22,321 nucleotides of DNA from a virus, in IMG/VR virus record IMGVR_UViG_3300018018_000032, positions 1-22,321 of that record, one strand, 5' to 3'. Below are positions 14,806 through 22,321 of this stretch, one piece after another (position 1 is the stretch's first letter; each line of letters begins with the position of its first letter). A program made the translations under genes and the position numbers. The notes under the pieces are model-generated. The model was not told where the DNA came from. It searched no databases and worked only from the letters and a program-made list of their open reading frames with translations.

Positions 14806-15216
14806 ATGAAAGAAATAGAATTCATCCGTAAATTATTCACTATTCCTTATAAACACCGCGGCCGCGGATATGACGGCGCGGATTGTTATGGCTTAATCAT
14901 TTTGTTCTACCGTGATTTCTTGGGCATTGAATTGCTGGATGTATATCAGGATTATGATGAAAGTTGGGCATTTAAGAGCAACAAGAATTATTTTTTGGAG
15001 AATTACCATAAGCAATTCGAGAAGATTTCCTTACCCAGAATATACGATATTATTTTATTTCAAAATAAGAAAGGCATTGCCAATCATGGCGGAGTGGTCC
15101 TGCAAAATGGTAAATTCATTCATTGTTCCAAAGATGGGGTAAGTATTAATAGATACAACGATGAAGATTTTAAACGGAAATTCAATGGATTTTATCGATA
15201 TAAAAATGGCTTATAA
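14806..15216 (+). CDS. NlpC/P60 peptidase, gpK-like tail tip hydrolase
   Basis: The product is a cysteine peptidase of the NlpC/P60 class, expected to cut peptide stems of peptidoglycan during infection. Motifs: GRGYDGADCYGLI with catalytic Cys27; NHGGVVL with His94; IHCSKDG with a possible third residue His106. At 136 residues it is only the NlpC domain; the JAMM domain that lambda gpK has at its N-terminus is absent. I chose ATG 14806, four bases after the gpL-like stop, over the longer reading from 14761 that overlaps it. Confidence 0.85.
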   Translation: MKEIEFIRKLFTIPYKHRGRGYDGADCYGLIILFYRDFLGIELLDVYQDYDESWAFKSNKNYFLENYHKQFEKISLPRIYDIILFQNKKGIANHGGVVLQNGKFIHCSKDGVSINRYNDEDFKRKFNGFYRYKNGL

Positions 15217-18200
15217 AAAGAAAAATATCACTATTCGTTTTATTCCCAATATCCTTTCAGAGGAAAATAGGATATTAAAATCTTTCCCATATAACCGTGA
15301 CTGGACTATTCGCAAATATCTTAAAAAATCAGGATTTGAATTTAAGGATATGCATATTGAAATTAATGGTAAAGAAATTAAAAATTTGAATCAGCATTTA
15401 ATTATTGGAGACGAGATTTTGGTTATTCCGAAAATAGAACATCCTATCCTTTTTATTATTGCTGCAGCTAAATGGTTTATGGCCTTATCTGTTTTAGCAA
15501 AAATTGGAGTAATTCTCACAACAGTTTCTATGGGTTATTCAGTTTATCAGGCCATTGCTGTTCAACGAGTAAAAACTCCTTCTTTTGATACCTCAGGAGA
15601 TGGACTTGATGCTGATTCTCCTTCTTCCTCTTGGGATGGTGTGCGTACAACCGCAAATGTCGGTACTCCTATACCTGTTATTTGCGGCACGGTTCTTACC
15701 GGGGGGAATGTCCTTAATGAATACGTTTCTACAGACGGGGATAAAAATTATTTGCATACTCTTTTGGGGATCTGCCATGGTGAAGTAGATAGTATTACCT
15801 TGATTCGCATTAACCGCAACCCTGCAGCCAACTATTCCGGTTATACCCTTGAAAGCCGCCTTGGCACCAATACTCAAACAGTCATTTCAGATTTTCATGA
15901 TAATCACAACCTAAAATCCATCGCCATCCAGATTACTAAAGATGATGCCTATACCTACACTACTGAAGATGACGATGTAGAAGCCTTTGAAGTACATTTC
16001 CAGTTGCCTTCTGGACTCTATCAGACAGACGCAAACGGCAATATATTATCTAATGATGTAACCTACAAAATCGAGTATAAACTCCATTCTTCTGAAACCT
16101 GGATAGATCTTGGCTCAACCACTATCAGCGCCAAATCTCGTAGCAGTCTGAAACGCATCTTCCGTCAGTCCGGACTTACAACCGGTCAGTACGATATCCG
16201 CGTCACCAAGACTTCAGATGATAGTGATTTTACACATACCAGTGATCTTTATATCGAACGTATAGATGAGATCAGCTGTGAAGATGAGCAGGAATTCCCC
16301 AATATCGCCGTAGCCGGCGTCAAATCCCTGGCCATGGACCAATTGTCCGGATCCTTCCCGGATTATGAATTCCTTGCGCGCGGAAAGTTTATGATCCCCA
16401 AAGTCATGAATGGAGAAAATATTGTAAGTTGGGATGATTATTATTGGGATCCCACTGCAACCTGCTATAAACTCCTTTCCGATGGGATCATTCTTACATG
16501 GGATGGCGTAACTTTCATTACAGCCTATTCCGCAAACCCTATCTGGTTCCTTTATCACCTAATGATCAATAAACGTTTCGGTCTTGGCCATTTTATCACC
16601 TCTAGCGATCATAACCTGGATTACCTGGTAGAAATGTCCCAATATTGCGAAGAACGCGTCCCTGATGGCCTGGGAGGCTGGGAAAAGCGCTTCCGCCTCG
16701 ATATCTGCATAGATAGCCCCCAAAAGGCCTTGGATCTAATATTACAACTCTGCTCAGTTTTCCGTGGACTTCCGTTTTATTCCGATAGAGGCCAAATCAA
16801 GATCGCCATCGAGAAACCAGAGATCCCGGTTCAGCTCATTCACATGGGCAATATTGTAAAAGATAGTTTTTCCGAGACTTGGGATTCTATCCGTGATGTC
16901 CCCAATATCGTTAATGTTCAATTTAATGACCAGGATAATAACTATGAAACAAGTACTATCCAAGCTGCCATAGATGATGAGGCCCTGGCTGCCGGCAAGC
17001 CTGTAAATATTAAAACTATCCGATATTATGGCACAAAACTTTCCTACGCCATCCGTTATGGTCGCGATTACCTTAAAATCTGCAAATATATCTCTAATAC
17101 CATAAAACTCTCAGCCGGCATAGGCGCTCTCGTGCGCCAATGCGGTGAACTCATCGATATAGCCCATGACGTGCCACAATGGGGTTTTTCCGGCCTTGTA
17201 AAGGCGGATTTTGATTATAAAGGCACCTATGACGCAGATACCCTTTATGCCATAAATGACGCAGTCGCCTATGAAGAAAATGAATATAAAGCTATTCAAC
17301 CAGCCTTAGGCAATCTTCCCACAGATACCGATTACTGGCAGATAATCTCAAGGACTAAAGTCAAACTAGACCGCAACGTCATCATCGAATCCGGCAAAAG
17401 TTACGCCATTCGGGTAGATTTCGCCAAAGGCGCGTACGAGGAAAGAATAATAACAGATCCTACAGGTACCTATACCGAAGTAACTGTCAGCTCACCATTC
17501 AGCAAGATTCCCATGGAACACGATGGTTATTCCTTTGGCGAGGTAGATAAAGTTGTCAAACCGGCCAGGATCGTATCTCTTAAACGCAAACGTAACTGCG
17601 AGTTGGAAATCGAAGCCGTTGAATATGATGAGCGCATTTATGATGACAGCACGGTGATCTTGCCCCAAAGGAAATACTCCTCTTTAAGCATGGATATCCC
17701 CGATGTCACAGGCCTCAAACTTACCGAGCGCATGATCGTGGCCAATGATGGCACCATAGAAGATGCCATCGACGTCTGGTTCGATAAGCCAAACATGACA
17801 AATTATTCTGTAAATAACTTCACCAAGGCCAAGATCTACTTATCAGACAACGCCGGCCTCAGTTGGAGTTTCGCAGGGGAAACAACCGGTATCCATTTCG
17901 CCATCACAGGTAACCTCAAAGACCTCCAAGCCTATAGGATCGCCGTTGTTTCCGTAGGCGTTACCGGTGAAAAATCCATCTTAACCAGCCCCCAGGAAAA
18001 TATCACCCTAGTAGGCAAATCCGCCCCGCCCCAAGATGTCGCCAATTTCATCGTCAACCAGTCCAGGGACAGGATCGTCTTCAGCTGGTCACACGTCACA
18101 GACGTCGACCGCGCCGGCTACGAGATCAGGATGGGCGAGTCCTGGGAAAGCGGCTATCCCATATTAAACGAAGACAAAAAGAATACCGCTGAGCTCCCCA

Positions 18201-18994
18201 TTTTTAAGACAGGCGAAAACCAGAAGTTCTATATCAAAGCCAAGGACACCTCAGGCAACTATTCCCAAAACGCAACCGAAGCGATCATTACCATAGATAA
18301 TATTCCCTTCCAAAACATCATAAAGAGCTATTCCGAGCAATCAGTCTGGTCCGGCACCTTGGAGAACCTCGAAGTCGTAGATGGGGTCCTCAAGATAACA
18401 GAAGGCAACCTTACCGGGAAATATATCACACCAGTCAGGGATGTCGGATACGTCGCCCCTTTCAAGATAGGCATCGACAGCATCGTCACGGCCACAGGGG
18501 ATACAAAATGGTCCGATTTCGCAGAAACCCTTAAATGGAGTGACTTACCTGATAATCTAAGATTCTCTGGGGAGGAACTCGCAGGCGCGGCCTCTTTTAG
18601 GATAAAGACATCTGAAGACAACATTAACTGGAGCGACTGGCTACTATGGCAGCCAGGGGACTACAATTGCCGATTCTTCCAGGTAGAAATGACCCTGATA
18701 AGAAACTCTACGGCGCAGGACCTGCAATGTTCCCAGATGAATTACTTTGCAGACCTCCCGGACGTAGACGACAAGTTCGAAGATGAAATAACAGACGCCG
18801 CAGCGGGTAAGGACGTCGTCTTTAACAAGACTTTCCATGAGATTCCTTACGGTGTAGATGTGATTCCTTTAACCGGCAATGGAGTCTATCGTAAAATAAC
18901 CAATCTTGACACGACAGGTGGCAACATAAAACTTTATGACCTTGTCGGCGCTCCTGCGACCGGCCAGATCAAGGTCCACGTACACGGGATATAA
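15206..18994 (+). CDS. Tail tip attachment protein, gpI/gpJ-like fusion
   Basis: This 1262-residue protein is the receptor-binding central tip. Residues 1-75 form a small beta-grasp-like domain and 79-118 a long hydrophobic segment, together resembling gpI; the gpJ-like part follows without a break (TPIPVICGTVLTGGNVLNEYVST near 155, GICHGEVDSI, then NPIWFLYHLMINKRFGLG near 440). Residues about 666-715 look like a small carbohydrate-binding insertion (YKGTYDADTLYAINDAVAY, NEYKAIQP, DTDYWQI). Two fibronectin-III-like domains lie near 830-1030. The C-terminus (VVFNKTFHEIPYGVDVIPL) is a lectin-like tip. ATG 15206 overlaps the peptidase by 11 bases; ATG 15161 and 15185 are alternatives, and none has a clear ribosome binding site. 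Confidence 0.88.
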   Translation: MAYKKKNITIRFIPNILSEENRILKSFPYNRDWTIRKYLKKSGFEFKDMHIEINGKEIKNLNQHLIIGDEILVIPKIEHPILFIIAAAKWFMALSVLAKIGVILTTVSMGYSVYQAIAVQRVKTPSFDTSGDGLDADSPSSSWDGVRTTANVGTPIPVICGTVLTGGNVLNEYVSTDGDKNYLHTLLGICHGEVDSITLIRINRNPAANYSGYTLESRLGTNTQTVISDFHDNHNLKSIAIQITKDDAYTYTTEDDDVEAFEVHFQLPSGLYQTDANGNILSNDVTYKIEYKLHSSETWIDLGSTTISAKSRSSLKRIFRQSGLTTGQYDIRVTKTSDDSDFTHTSDLYIERIDEISCEDEQEFPNIAVAGVKSLAMDQLSGSFPDYEFLARGKFMIPKVMNGENIVSWDDYYWDPTATCYKLLSDGIILTWDGVTFITAYSANPIWFLYHLMINKRFGLGHFITSSDHNLDYLVEMSQYCEERVPDGLGGWEKRFRLDICIDSPQKALDLILQLCSVFRGLPFYSDRGQIKIAIEKPEIPVQLIHMGNIVKDSFSETWDSIRDVPNIVNVQFNDQDNNYETSTIQAAIDDEALAAGKPVNIKTIRYYGTKLSYAIRYGRDYLKICKYISNTIKLSAGIGALVRQCGELIDIAHDVPQWGFSGLVKADFDYKGTYDADTLYAINDAVAYEENEYKAIQPALGNLPTDTDYWQIISRTKVKLDRNVIIESGKSYAIRVDFAKGAYEERIITDPTGTYTEVTVSSPFSKIPMEHDGYSFGEVDKVVKPARIVSLKRKRNCELEIEAVEYDERIYDDSTVILPQRKYSSLSMDIPDVTGLKLTERMIVANDGTIEDAIDVWFDKPNMTNYSVNNFTKAKIYLSDNAGLSWSFAGETTGIHFAITGNLKDLQAYRIAVVSVGVTGEKSILTSPQENITLVGKSAPPQDVANFIVNQSRDRIVFSWSHVTDVDRAGYEIRMGESWESGYPILNEDKKNTAELPIFKTGENQKFYIKAKDTSGNYSQNATEAIITIDNIPFQNIIKSYSEQSVWSGTLENLEVVDGVLKITEGNLTGKYITPVRDVGYVAPFKIGIDSIVTATGDTKWSDFAETLKWSDLPDNLRFSGEELAGAASFRIKTSEDNINWSDWLLWQPGDYNCRFFQVEMTLIRNSTAQDLQCSQMNYFADLPDVDDKFEDEITDAAAGKDVVFNKTFHEIPYGVDVIPLTGNGVYRKITNLDTTGGNIKLYDLVGAPATGQIKVHVHGI

Positions 18995-18995
18995 T

Positions 18996-19328
18996 ATGAA
19001 AAAACTTATAATCATCTTAATCAGCATTTTCCTCCTGGCCATAACCTGTTCTTACGCGGATATGACCATCCAACCCCTGAAGATTTATGTCGATGAGGAA
19101 ACCGAAAAGAATATAGCCTGGGCCAATGGCACAATAGTCTATGTAACGAATACAAGCAAAACTTACCAGCTCCAGAACGGTTCTTTTGTGGAATACTATC
19201 CAAGTGGCAAATATTGGAAAGACGATGGTACCCTAGGCGACCCTTCCGGCGGCACTGCCGATATAGATGGAGGATCTGCCGATACTGACTATAACCAGGT
19301 TCCAGACATAGATGGAGGAGGGGCATAA
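18996..19328 (+). CDS. Small exported fibre-associated protein with DGG repeats
   Basis: ATG 18996 follows the tip gene stop by one base. The 110-residue product begins with a Sec signal peptide (MKKLIIILISIFLLAITCSYA, cleaved before DMTIQ). The mature part is beta-rich (IAWANGTIVYVTNTSKTYQL, GSFVEYYPSGKYWKDDGT), and the C-terminus carries two IDGG motifs (TADIDGGSADTDY, PDIDGGGA), a sequence style found at the ends of phage tail fibre proteins. Its role is unknown. The stop overlaps the next ATG (TAATG). Confidence 0.75.
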   Translation: MKKLIIILISIFLLAITCSYADMTIQPLKIYVDEETEKNIAWANGTIVYVTNTSKTYQLQNGSFVEYYPSGKYWKDDGTLGDPSGGTADIDGGSADTDYNQVPDIDGGGA

Positions 19329-20578
19329 TGAAAAGACTTATTTTATCTATTCTAATTTCTTTGTGTTTTATCTCATCAGGATTAGCCGCGCAAAAAATAC
19401 AGTTCAGGCGGGATGTCGCTGCCACATGGACTTCCGTCAACCCCACCCTCGCATCCGGGGAAATAGGTCTTGAAACAGACACGGGAAAATTCAAGATGGG
19501 CGATGGCACTACTGCCTGGACTTCTCTCGCTTATTTTAGCGCAGGTGCAATAGCGAGTTATCCAGGAGCAGGTATAGCAGTATCTACTGGTTCGGGATGG
19601 AATTCATCAATAACCGACAATCATTCCAATTGGGATACCGCCTACGGCTGGGGCAACCATTCACAAGCTGGATATTCAAAATATGAATTTGGGGCAAATG
19701 ATTTTAATGGTACGGGAGATTTTACTACAACATCTAATGTCAGTGCAGCTGAATACTATGGGAATGGTTCACATCTGGAAGGAGTGATTGCGGAAGAAGT
19801 AGAATGGAGTAAAATTACTGGGAATATCTCCAATCAGACGGATTTACAAGAGGAGTTCAATAGCAAGGTATCGAATACCACCACAGTCAATGGTCATGCC
19901 CTTTCTGCCAATATAACAGTTAATAAAACTGATATCGGCCTGGGGAATGTCAGCGATATCGATACCACCAATCCCGCAAACATAACCCAAGATAGCGATC
20001 ATCGTTTTGTCAATGATACCGAGAAATCTGACTGGAATGCTAAAGCGGACTATGAGTTTGGCGCGCATAATTTTAATGGCACAGGAAATTTTACTACTCC
20101 AGGGAATATTAGCGCAGGTAATCTTTCAGGAACTATAAATCCCGCCAATGTAACCCAAGATACAACTCACCGTTTTGTGAGTGATGCTAATATAAGCAAC
20201 TGGAATGCTAAGCCGACCACTTCCTCTACGGATACCTTTACCAATAAGCGTAACCAGAAAAGAATTGATTCCCAAACGACTACAAACACTATTACCCCTG
20301 AAATCTCAACTTACGACATCTTTGTAAGAAGCGCGCAGGCGCACGACCTAGTAATCAATAATCATTCAACTAGCACTCCTGCCGATGGAGAAACGATGGA
20401 ATTTATCATCCTTTCTGACGCCACACCTAGGGCAATTACTTATGGGGATAAATATGTAGCTAAGTCAGGGATTGCATTACCTACGACTACCGTGGCTTCG
20501 AAATGCACGAAGATGCTATTCCAGTGGCGGGCCAGTATAAGCCAATGGGATTTAATAGCATCAACGCAAGAGGCTTAA
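19328..20578 (+). CDS. Fibre protein with signal peptide and Mtd-like N-terminal domain
   Basis: The 416-residue product has a signal peptide (MKRLILSILISLCFISSGLAA) followed at 22-70 by a domain typical of tail fibre N-termini: QKIQFRRDVAATWTSVNPTL, GEIGLETDTGKFKMGDGTTAW, similar to the major tropism determinant N-terminal domain. Residues 118-300 contain two repeat pairs (YEFGANDFNGTGDFTT and YEFGAHNFNGTGNFTT; NITQDSDHRFVNDTEKSDWNAK-like and NVTQDTTHRFV...SNWNAK). The C-terminal 100 residues form a beta-rich end (FVRSAQAHDLVINNHSTSTP, MEFIILSDATPRAITYGD). GGAGGAGG precedes ATG 19328. It is a fibre by sequence but apparently exported. Confidence 0.82.
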   Translation: MKRLILSILISLCFISSGLAAQKIQFRRDVAATWTSVNPTLASGEIGLETDTGKFKMGDGTTAWTSLAYFSAGAIASYPGAGIAVSTGSGWNSSITDNHSNWDTAYGWGNHSQAGYSKYEFGANDFNGTGDFTTTSNVSAAEYYGNGSHLEGVIAEEVEWSKITGNISNQTDLQEEFNSKVSNTTTVNGHALSANITVNKTDIGLGNVSDIDTTNPANITQDSDHRFVNDTEKSDWNAKADYEFGAHNFNGTGNFTTPGNISAGNLSGTINPANVTQDTTHRFVSDANISNWNAKPTTSSTDTFTNKRNQKRIDSQTTTNTITPEISTYDIFVRSAQAHDLVINNHSTSTPADGETMEFIILSDATPRAITYGDKYVAKSGIALPTTTVASKCTKMLFQWRASISQWDLIASTQEA

Positions 20579-20579
20579 T

Positions 20580-21965
20580 ATGAAAAAGTTTTTTTATAAA
20601 AGGTGGTCTTTCAGAGAGCGCAAGTGTGGGAACATAGTTCAAGGTTTGCCTTTACTATGCCACAGCCACCTTAAAAAACTTCTCCTTACTCTTGGTTTAT
20701 TATTTTTACCCTTACAGATATTTGCTGCAACTTCTTCAGTTACTCAGACCGCCGCAGGAAATTATACCTGGCTCTGTCCTCCTGGCGTTACCACTTTACA
20801 AGTTGAACTTCGGGGTGGCGGAGGTTCAGGCGGCGGTTCAACGACTAATCCCGGCGGCGGAGGTGGTGCGGCAGGCGGTCAGTATTCTATTAACAGCAGT
20901 TTAGCGGTTACCGCAGGTACTACTTATAACTATACGGTTGCGGCGGCGCAAACGACAGTAGGCACAGGAAATGGTTCTGATGGACACGATAGTACCTTTA
21001 ATACCAATAGTGTAGTTGCCAAAGGCGGGCAGCATGGAACTTCATACCAGGGTGGCGCAACCCATGGCACAGGTTCAACAACTGGCGGCGTAGGCACAGT
21101 TACCGCAGGAGTAAGTGGCGAGGACGGAACGACCACTTATGGAGGAGCAGGCGGTGCAGGGGGAAATAGTGGAGGAGCAGGCGGTGCAAGAAAATCTTCC
21201 GACGGGAATGGCAACAATGGAACTGCTCCTGGCGGCGGAGGGTCAGGCGGTTTCAAGAATACAACATCAAGCAGAAATGGTGGCACAGGCGCAGCCGGGA
21301 AGTCTATTCTTACTTATACCACTCCTTTAGTCTCTGCACTTACAGATAATTTCAATGATAATTCTTTAGATGCGAAGTGGACTACTTATATAGATACTGG
21401 TGCTGGTTCTATTGCGGAAGCTAATCAAGAAATTGAGATAACTACTAATATTAATGTTTCAGGATATACAGAATTATATTCTGTAAATGATTACGATTTA
21501 ACAGGTTCATCTATGACAATAAAAGTCATAGATAGGGGGAGTATAACTAATACTAACCTTTATTTTTATCCTCTTTTTGCGATAATTTGGAGCGGGAATT
21601 ATGACCTTATAGGATGGGATATATTTACTCTTGACGGTATAAATATGCGCATTTGCCCAGTTAAAAGAATTAATTATTCTTTTACTTTAATAGGGACAGA
21701 TGTCGCTTATAACGCTAATACCTACCGTTACTTAAAAATCAGGGAACTTTCAGGAACTACTTATTTTGACTACTCCGCTGATGGGTTAAATTGGAATAAT
21801 TTTAATTCTGTTGCCAATCCTATTACTATTACAGCTATCCGAGGGAGTAGTTCTGTATACACTACCTCTGCAACTGTTTCTGCCACTACAGCTAAAGTAG
21901 ATGACTTTAATATATTGCCGAGCGGAACAAACCACAACGGAGATTTTTTTCAATTCTTTAATTAA
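20580..21965 (+). CDS. Glycine-rich fibre or adhesin with signal peptide and lectin-like domain
   Basis: The 461-residue product has a Sec signal core at 34-48 (LLLTLGLLFLPLQIFA) after an unusually long 31-residue N-region rich in Lys and Arg. Residues about 51-245 are a glycine-rich beta domain starting TWLCPPGVTTLQVELRGGGG, like the glycine-rich domains of phage adhesins. From about 250, FNDNSLDAKWTTYIDTGAG starts a concanavalin/LamG-like domain ending near FNILPSG. AGAGG seven bases before ATG 20580 supports the full-length start. Likely receptor or surface binding; the exact ligand is unknown. Confidence 0.78.
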   Translation: MKKFFYKRWSFRERKCGNIVQGLPLLCHSHLKKLLLTLGLLFLPLQIFAATSSVTQTAAGNYTWLCPPGVTTLQVELRGGGGSGGGSTTNPGGGGGAAGGQYSINSSLAVTAGTTYNYTVAAAQTTVGTGNGSDGHDSTFNTNSVVAKGGQHGTSYQGGATHGTGSTTGGVGTVTAGVSGEDGTTTYGGAGGAGGNSGGAGGARKSSDGNGNNGTAPGGGGSGGFKNTTSSRNGGTGAAGKSILTYTTPLVSALTDNFNDNSLDAKWTTYIDTGAGSIAEANQEIEITTNINVSGYTELYSVNDYDLTGSSMTIKVIDRGSITNTNLYFYPLFAIIWSGNYDLIGWDIFTLDGINMRICPVKRINYSFTLIGTDVAYNANTYRYLKIRELSGTTYFDYSADGLNWNNFNSVANPITITAIRGSSSVYTTSATVSATTAKVDDFNILPSGTNHNGDFFQFFN

Positions 21966-21977
21966 AGGAGCATAGAT

Positions 21978-22187
21978 ATGAAGCAAATCATTCCTCATAA
22001 GCTCATTATATCTCTTAACCAGGACGGAACCTTTAAGAGCGGAATCCTGCAGTACAAACTTAAAATAGACGAGATAGAAGAAAGGCAGTTTCGTACTTTG
22101 GGGATTACGCAGGGTATCAATCAGGAAGAAATCAATAAGGTCTTAGAGGACGCCAAATCGCACGCAGAACAAGGAGAAGGAATATGA
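21978..22187 (+). CDS. Small fibre-cassette protein of unknown function
   Basis: The 69-residue soluble protein begins MKQIIPHKLIISLNQDGTFK and contains GILQYKLKIDEIEERQFRTLG, then a helical end NKVLEDAKSHAEQGEGI. Proteins of this style occur beside phage tail fibre genes, but I know no function. It has no signal peptide, unlike its neighbours. AAAGGAG precedes ATG 21978 at good spacing, and its stop TGA overlaps the next ATG, so it is coupled to the next gene. A fibre assembly helper is one possibility. Confidence 0.72.
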   Translation: MKQIIPHKLIISLNQDGTFKSGILQYKLKIDEIEERQFRTLGITQGINQEEINKVLEDAKSHAEQGEGI

Positions 22188-22321
22188 AAAGAAGATTATT
22201 GATAACAGCGTTAATTTTTTTACTGGCCGGCAGCAATGCATTCAGTGCGTGGGATCCTACCAAGCCAGGCAATGACGATATAGTGAAATATGGTCCTGCA
22301 GTAATCAGGGCGAATTTTGAA
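22184..22321 (+). CDS. Fibre protein with signal peptide, cut by window end
   Basis: Only the first 46 codons are present. A Sec signal peptide (MKRRLLITALIFLLAGSNAF, cleaved after SA) is followed by WDPTKPGNDDIVKYGPAVIRANFE. The mature start matches a widespread phage tail fibre opening of the form W-x-x-x-K-P ... IRxNF/W. AAGGAGAAGG precedes ATG 22184, which overlaps the previous stop. The rest lies beyond the window. Confidence 0.75.
   Translation, partial: MKRRLLITALIFLLAGSNAFSAWDPTKPGNDDIVKYGPAVIRANFE

Follow-up and report, generated by a model that had tools for sequence, protein, structure and literature searches.

Fibre-type genes downstream of the gpJ homologue

The window, by which we mean the whole stretch of DNA analysed, is a 22,321-base virus record, and all positions given here are window positions unless another record is named. 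Its list of open reading frames, together with family searches, delineates a lambda-like late region encoding TerL, a portal, a major head protein, a tape measure protein, Phage_tail_L, NlpC/P60 and gpJ. The gene starting at 15161 (genes are named below by their first position) is homologous to the tail-tip protein J, including solved gpJ chains, and its product is 42-48% identical to the J proteins of its relatives. A fibre cluster directly adjoins gpJ on the 3' side, with the gene order 18996, 19328, 20580, 21978 and 22184 (Table 1). The NlpC/P60 gene (window:14761-15216) has a listed, putative TTG start and overlaps the end of the Phage_tail_L gene. In a search for the host of the window phage, gpJ had no strong match among 297 genomes from the phylum to which HGW-Deltaproteobacteria-13 belongs, nor among 198 from that of a Nitrospira genome.

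Table 1. Positions of the gpJ homologue, the post-J genes, their predicted signal peptides (SPs) and a zinc-ribbon gene of related phages
Feature	Position	Strand	Evidence and remarks
gpJ homologue, tail-tip attachment protein	15161..18994	+	phrog_31 4.9e-126, PF24801 4.6e-22; without SP
110-aa SP-bearing protein with IDGG motifs	18996..19328	+	start directly after J stop; no family; SP rule positive
Predicted SP of 18996, 21 aa	18996..19058	+	predicted cleavage SYA/DM: MKKLIIILISIFLLAITCSYA/DMTIQ
Mtd_N tail fibre with SP	19328..20578	+	PF18454 8.7e-13; 17 phrog matches, mostly tail/structural
Predicted SP of 19328, 20 aa	19328..19387	+	predicted cleavage GLA/AQ: MKRLILSILISLCFISSGLA/AQKIQFRRD
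Mtd_N domain of 19328	19397..19513	+	residues 24-62 of precursor
Glycine-rich fibre/adhesin-type protein with SP	20580..21965	+	PF21722 1.6e-11, phrog_863 2.3e-19
N-terminal extension and predicted SP of 20580, 49 aa	20580..20726	+	predicted cleavage IFA/ATSSV: MKKFFYKRWSFRERKCGNIVQGLPLLCHSH-LKKLLLTLGLLFLPLQIFA/ATSSV
69-aa post-J protein without SP	21978..22187	+	in relatives conserved between J and AWDxTKP gene
AWDxTKP fibre with SP, cut by window end	22184..22321	+	SP-less homologues MAWDKTKPEND... in relatives
Predicted SP of 22184, 21 aa	22184..22246	+	predicted cleavage AFS/AW: MKRRLLITALIFLLAGSNAFS/AWDPTKP
Zinc-ribbon gene, ~90-130 aa	L190:1128-1406, L434:402-701, L458:4875-5267	-	only SP-less phages

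Family profile searches bear out most of the fibre signatures that the original prediction had read from the letters. The product of 19328 matches the Mtd_N profile PF18454 with 48.4 bits against a curated cut-off of 26.3, its relatives of solved structure being phage hyaluronidases (PDB 2c3f, 2yvv), and that of 20580 matches Gly_rich_2 (PF21722) with 45.1 bits against a curated cut-off of 24.3. The W..TKP..IRANF motif of 22184 proved to be part of a recurrent N-terminus of phage fibre genes, here called AWDxTKP. The exception is 18996, whose IDGG motifs are visible but match no family in these searches; among the viral contigs searched, relatives were confirmed for neither 18996 nor 20580. 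Taken together, the domain matches, the signal-peptide grammar described below and the existence of SP-less homologues support the assignment of the named proteins, as judged from their sequences, to fibre-type proteins carrying export signals. Because the phages are uncultivated, the probable membership of the SP-bearing fibres in the virion rests on homology.

Predicted Sec signal peptides and their start codons

Signal peptides were called by a rule-based screen calibrated on two annotated 50-kb stretches of E. coli K-12, in which it was positive for 14 of 14 exported, 2 of 47 cytosolic and 13 of 21 membrane proteins; in view of the last figure, the screen alone cannot tell SPs from membrane anchors. 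In the window, four of the five post-J genes are positive versus none of the 22 other genes. All four genes that had been predicted to start with a Sec-type signal (18996, 19328, 20580 and 22184) are present as open reading frames, pass the screen and display the grammar of Sec and signal peptidase I (SPase I) substrates, namely a positively charged n-region, an uncharged hydrophobic core and a small residue at position -1, and the 69-residue gene 21978 is, again as predicted, negative. The weakest case is 20580, in which the SP-like segment appears only after a 32-residue extension, giving an atypically long n-region. All four SPs were called type I, and none was called with an SPase II lipobox of the kind expected of an Llp-type superinfection-exclusion lipoprotein.

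Applied to 2211 viral genes with a length of 80 aa or more, the same screen flags 106 (4.8%). At this base rate, four positives among five adjacent genes would arise with a probability of P ~3e-5, assuming that the genes are independent, in line with the earlier argument that four in a row are unlikely by chance. As predicted signals, the export signals of the post-J genes are strongly supported. It is correspondingly extremely improbable that they are false positives, that is, ordinary fibres whose N-termini happen to be hydrophobic or whose starts are called in the wrong place: although the screen flags membrane proteins too, this low chance probability is accompanied by recurrence in several phage lineages and two prophages, by an exact junction between SP and domain, and by Shine-Dalgarno sequences at most of the upstream ATGs.

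In both 19328 and 22184, a strong Shine-Dalgarno sequence precedes the upstream ATG, and the sole internal start candidate is one TTG located inside the SP. True starts 3' of the hydrophobic segments, against which the original prediction was to be checked, were not found in these two genes, in which no start codon lies between SP and domain, and wrong start calls do not explain the predicted SPs. Alone among the named genes, 18996 has an ATG just after the SP, at codon 23, with no obvious Shine-Dalgarno sequence. Internal initiation at such a codon could give a fibre a cytoplasmic form, which would go onto virions, beside its exported form; we consider this very unlikely, since 19328 and 22184 offer no codon of this kind and no Shine-Dalgarno sequence was seen before that of 18996. 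The extension of 20580 (window:20580-20675), which places 32 residues before the SP core, contains no internal ATG and one TTG (codon 23), and its start is putative.

The same domains with and without signal peptides in other phages

A search of related phages for the same fibre domains, as had been suggested, returned both SP-bearing and SP-less versions. In the viral Mtd_N relatives examined, the domain begins at residue 3-9 with no SP, whereas the 19328 precursor reaches this very N-terminal position only after the predicted cleavage, its domain starting at residue 24. In relatives whose TerL is ~50% identical to that of the window, 21978 homologues and a MAWDKTKPEND protein without SP are encoded among the genes that follow gpJ. 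A pattern scan for M-AWDxTKP, from which unrelated MAWDTTKP proteins were excluded, identified 25 distinct SP-less sequences starting M-AWD. A second scan, which required an SP-sized gap before AWDxTKP and made no demand on hydrophobicity or on the residue preceding AWD, identified an SP directly before AWD in six further IMG/VR phage records. The SP-bearing protein of the phage record L217 and the SP-less one of L434 are identical at 66/100 positions over the AWDxTKP part. All 7 SP-AWDxTKP proteins have A, G or S just ahead of AWD (P ~1e-4 from composition), so predicted cleavage would leave AWD, as Met removal should from M-AWD; a wider table shows one of these three residues before the domain in 20/20 cases, most of the other cut sites there being author-chosen. 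For both AWDxTKP and Mtd_N, predicted cleavage would thereby nearly restore the N-terminus of the bare homologues. Among genome contigs, the SP-AWDxTKP pattern gave nothing beyond chance matches, and likewise in 155 genomes of the class of the prophage host described below. Among cultured phages, there was no match to the AWDxTKP protein of L217, one short match to that of L199 and no good match to the 69-aa gene.

The N-terminus of a fibre is generally its tail-proximal end. A hydrophobic segment at this end could sit in the tail tip of the virion, uncleaved, as an anchor or a membrane-active helix. This we regard as unlikely, since SPs are not conserved in sequence between phages that have 42-48% identity in their J proteins, every SP-bearing AWDxTKP protein has one of the small residues named above just ahead of the domain, and the SP-less homologues do without the segment.

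Phages with SP-bearing fibres span several lineages, comprising L199, L201 and L217 of the same J family, the group L204/L205/L208, L296 and L377. The first three have gpJ and a 21978 homologue in common with the window; a second SP-bearing gene of L199 resembles virion structural families, L201 combines an SP with AWDxTKP and LamG, and L217, over its full 38.9-kb record, carries seven SP-bearing fibre/adhesin-like genes, five of them in a second cluster, one with LamG. L204, L205 and L208 represent another phage type and have two SP genes each, with a pectate-lyase-type tailspike behind the SP in L205, and in L377 an SP is joined to LamG. In L296, a 72-kb phage, SP, Mtd_N and Collar occur in one fibre, which is found with 100% identity over 354 aa in a prophage on a 94-kb contig, joined to host genes; the host is a genome in the class of HGW-Deltaproteobacteria-13. 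At the prophage/host junction there (L473/L474; G588:C8, ~32.5 kb), the SP fibre and two downstream phage genes end immediately ahead of KaiC-like host genes, as identified by eye. In a second prophage of this class, an SP stands in front of a fibre whose match to phrog_8469 starts at profile position 3, and four other collar proteins in the class have no SP.

Within the J family, predicted SPs are all-or-none per phage. On the SP-bearing side, 9/9 recognised post-J fibre-type genes are tagged in the window, L199, L201 and L217, with the proviso that the window, L199 and L201 records stop inside the SP genes or a short way past them and could have an SP-less fibre elsewhere; on the other side, none of the 16 relatives whose records show a fibre gene, L434 among them, carries an SP on it, and many of these relatives are close to each other. 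Trees of J and AWDxTKP did not tell gain of SPs from loss. In the SP-less phages, the divergent L434 and L458 among them, the 21978 homologue is separated from the AWDxTKP gene by a zinc-ribbon gene for which family searches gave no confident match. The four SP phages have no such gene at that place, and a search of the whole L217 record (38.9 kb) did not find it either. No weight is placed on a Fisher value that came from a provisional count and takes no account of relatedness.

Some SP-less sister phages encode a cysteine-rich protein (17 Cys) behind the AWDxTKP fibre (loci L186:5283-9856 and L190:2-577(-)), with similar ones in L188, L391, L431, L445 and L446; the C-terminal end of the L190 protein reads CCECECTCTCTCTC... 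In L186, the gene is followed by three radical SAM/SPASM genes that resemble RiPP maturases (PapB-like) with scores below NCBIfam cut-offs. The cysteine-rich proteins are possibly peptide-modified phage adhesins.

Proposed export of fibres and comparison with known systems

The usual view of tailed phages is that the whole virion, with its fibres, is finished in the cytoplasm before the cell lyses. From predicted SPs that stand before fibre domains, recur among phages and are all-or-none per phage, we infer actual export, cleavage, extracytoplasmic folding and attachment at lysis. The tail fibre/adhesin proteins would be made as Sec preproteins, exported by the host Sec machinery and relieved of the signal by signal peptidase I, leaving an N-terminus close to that of SP-less homologues after Met removal. 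The fibres would fold and collect outside the cytoplasm, in the periplasm if the host is diderm, and would join fibre-less virions when the inner membrane fails, probably at lysis. We hold this sequence of export, cleavage and extracytoplasmic addition to virions with moderate confidence. In E. coli, Sec generally disfavours positive charge at the start of a mature protein; the predicted mature Mtd_N protein begins AQKIQFRRD, with a net charge of +2, and is not ideal in this respect, which speaks against export. Oxidative folding was considered as a reason for export and rejected, cysteine not being enriched (0.86 vs 1.09 per 100 aa).

The exported proteins might instead be no virion parts and act on the envelope of the infected or lysogenic host, by receptor binding or masking, a change in adhesion or degradation of surface glycans, an appreciable though doubtful possibility. 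Lambda has an exported outer-membrane protein, Lom, encoded between its tail-spike and tail-fibre genes (PMC12309495), the tail-like PblB of S. pneumoniae prophages, with a putative SP, works as an adhesin (PMC4508584), and the pectate-lyase-type tailspike of L205 and the LamG domains of L201, L377 and L481 would suit such a role. However, Sec export by itself stops short of the surface in a diderm, the tagging of all recognised fibres of a phage leaves no recognised SP-less fibre for the virion, and the N-terminal Mtd_N and AWDxTKP domains, which a free effector would not need, are intact. It is this tagging of every recognised fibre, together with the retention of the N-terminal domains, that leads us to favour assembly outside the cytoplasm over a surface effector. 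Of the three meanings that the original prediction had offered, the virion anchor thus fares badly (the SPs vary, the -1 rule of SPase I is obeyed and bare homologues exist), extracytoplasmic assembly would fit best, and surface display retains some likelihood.

More generally, and more tentatively, some tailed phages may export their whole fibre set via Sec and finish their virions extracytoplasmically at lysis, the alternative being a cytoplasmic route with a zinc-ribbon partner, and relatives may switch between the two routes. If true, such a heritable, phage-wide shift of fibres to the export pathway would change the picture of cytoplasmic completion and supply a case from nature in which large fibres cross a membrane. 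It would also make testable why some phages have SPs and near relatives have none.

We found no report of SP-tagged fibre sets in the open-licence literature, and one may exist elsewhere. Mtd_N (PF18454) fibres and phage hyaluronidases (PDB 2c3f, 2yvv) have the same N-terminal domain in a tail or structural context; the relatives seen begin with this domain, whereas 19328 has a Sec SP in front of it. In lambda, as in the window, fibre-type genes follow gpJ, and in lambda the interval encodes an exported protein (PMC12309495), but Lom is an outer-membrane barrel and no fibre, whereas in the window the fibre-type proteins themselves carry predicted SPs. PblB of pneumococcal prophages, also tail-like and also predicted to have an SP (PMC4508584), is a single protein from a monoderm host, with no all-or-none fibre set of the kind seen in the window phage and its relatives. 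SP endolysins (J5a clade, fOg44) are also phage proteins that use Sec (PMC8878798), but they are lysis enzymes, not fibres. As for diversity-generating retroelements, their cellular targets often have SPs and their phage targets are fibre-like (PMC8144416, PMC6199706); these phage targets are reported to have no SPs (PMC6199706), whereas here phage fibres are predicted to carry them.
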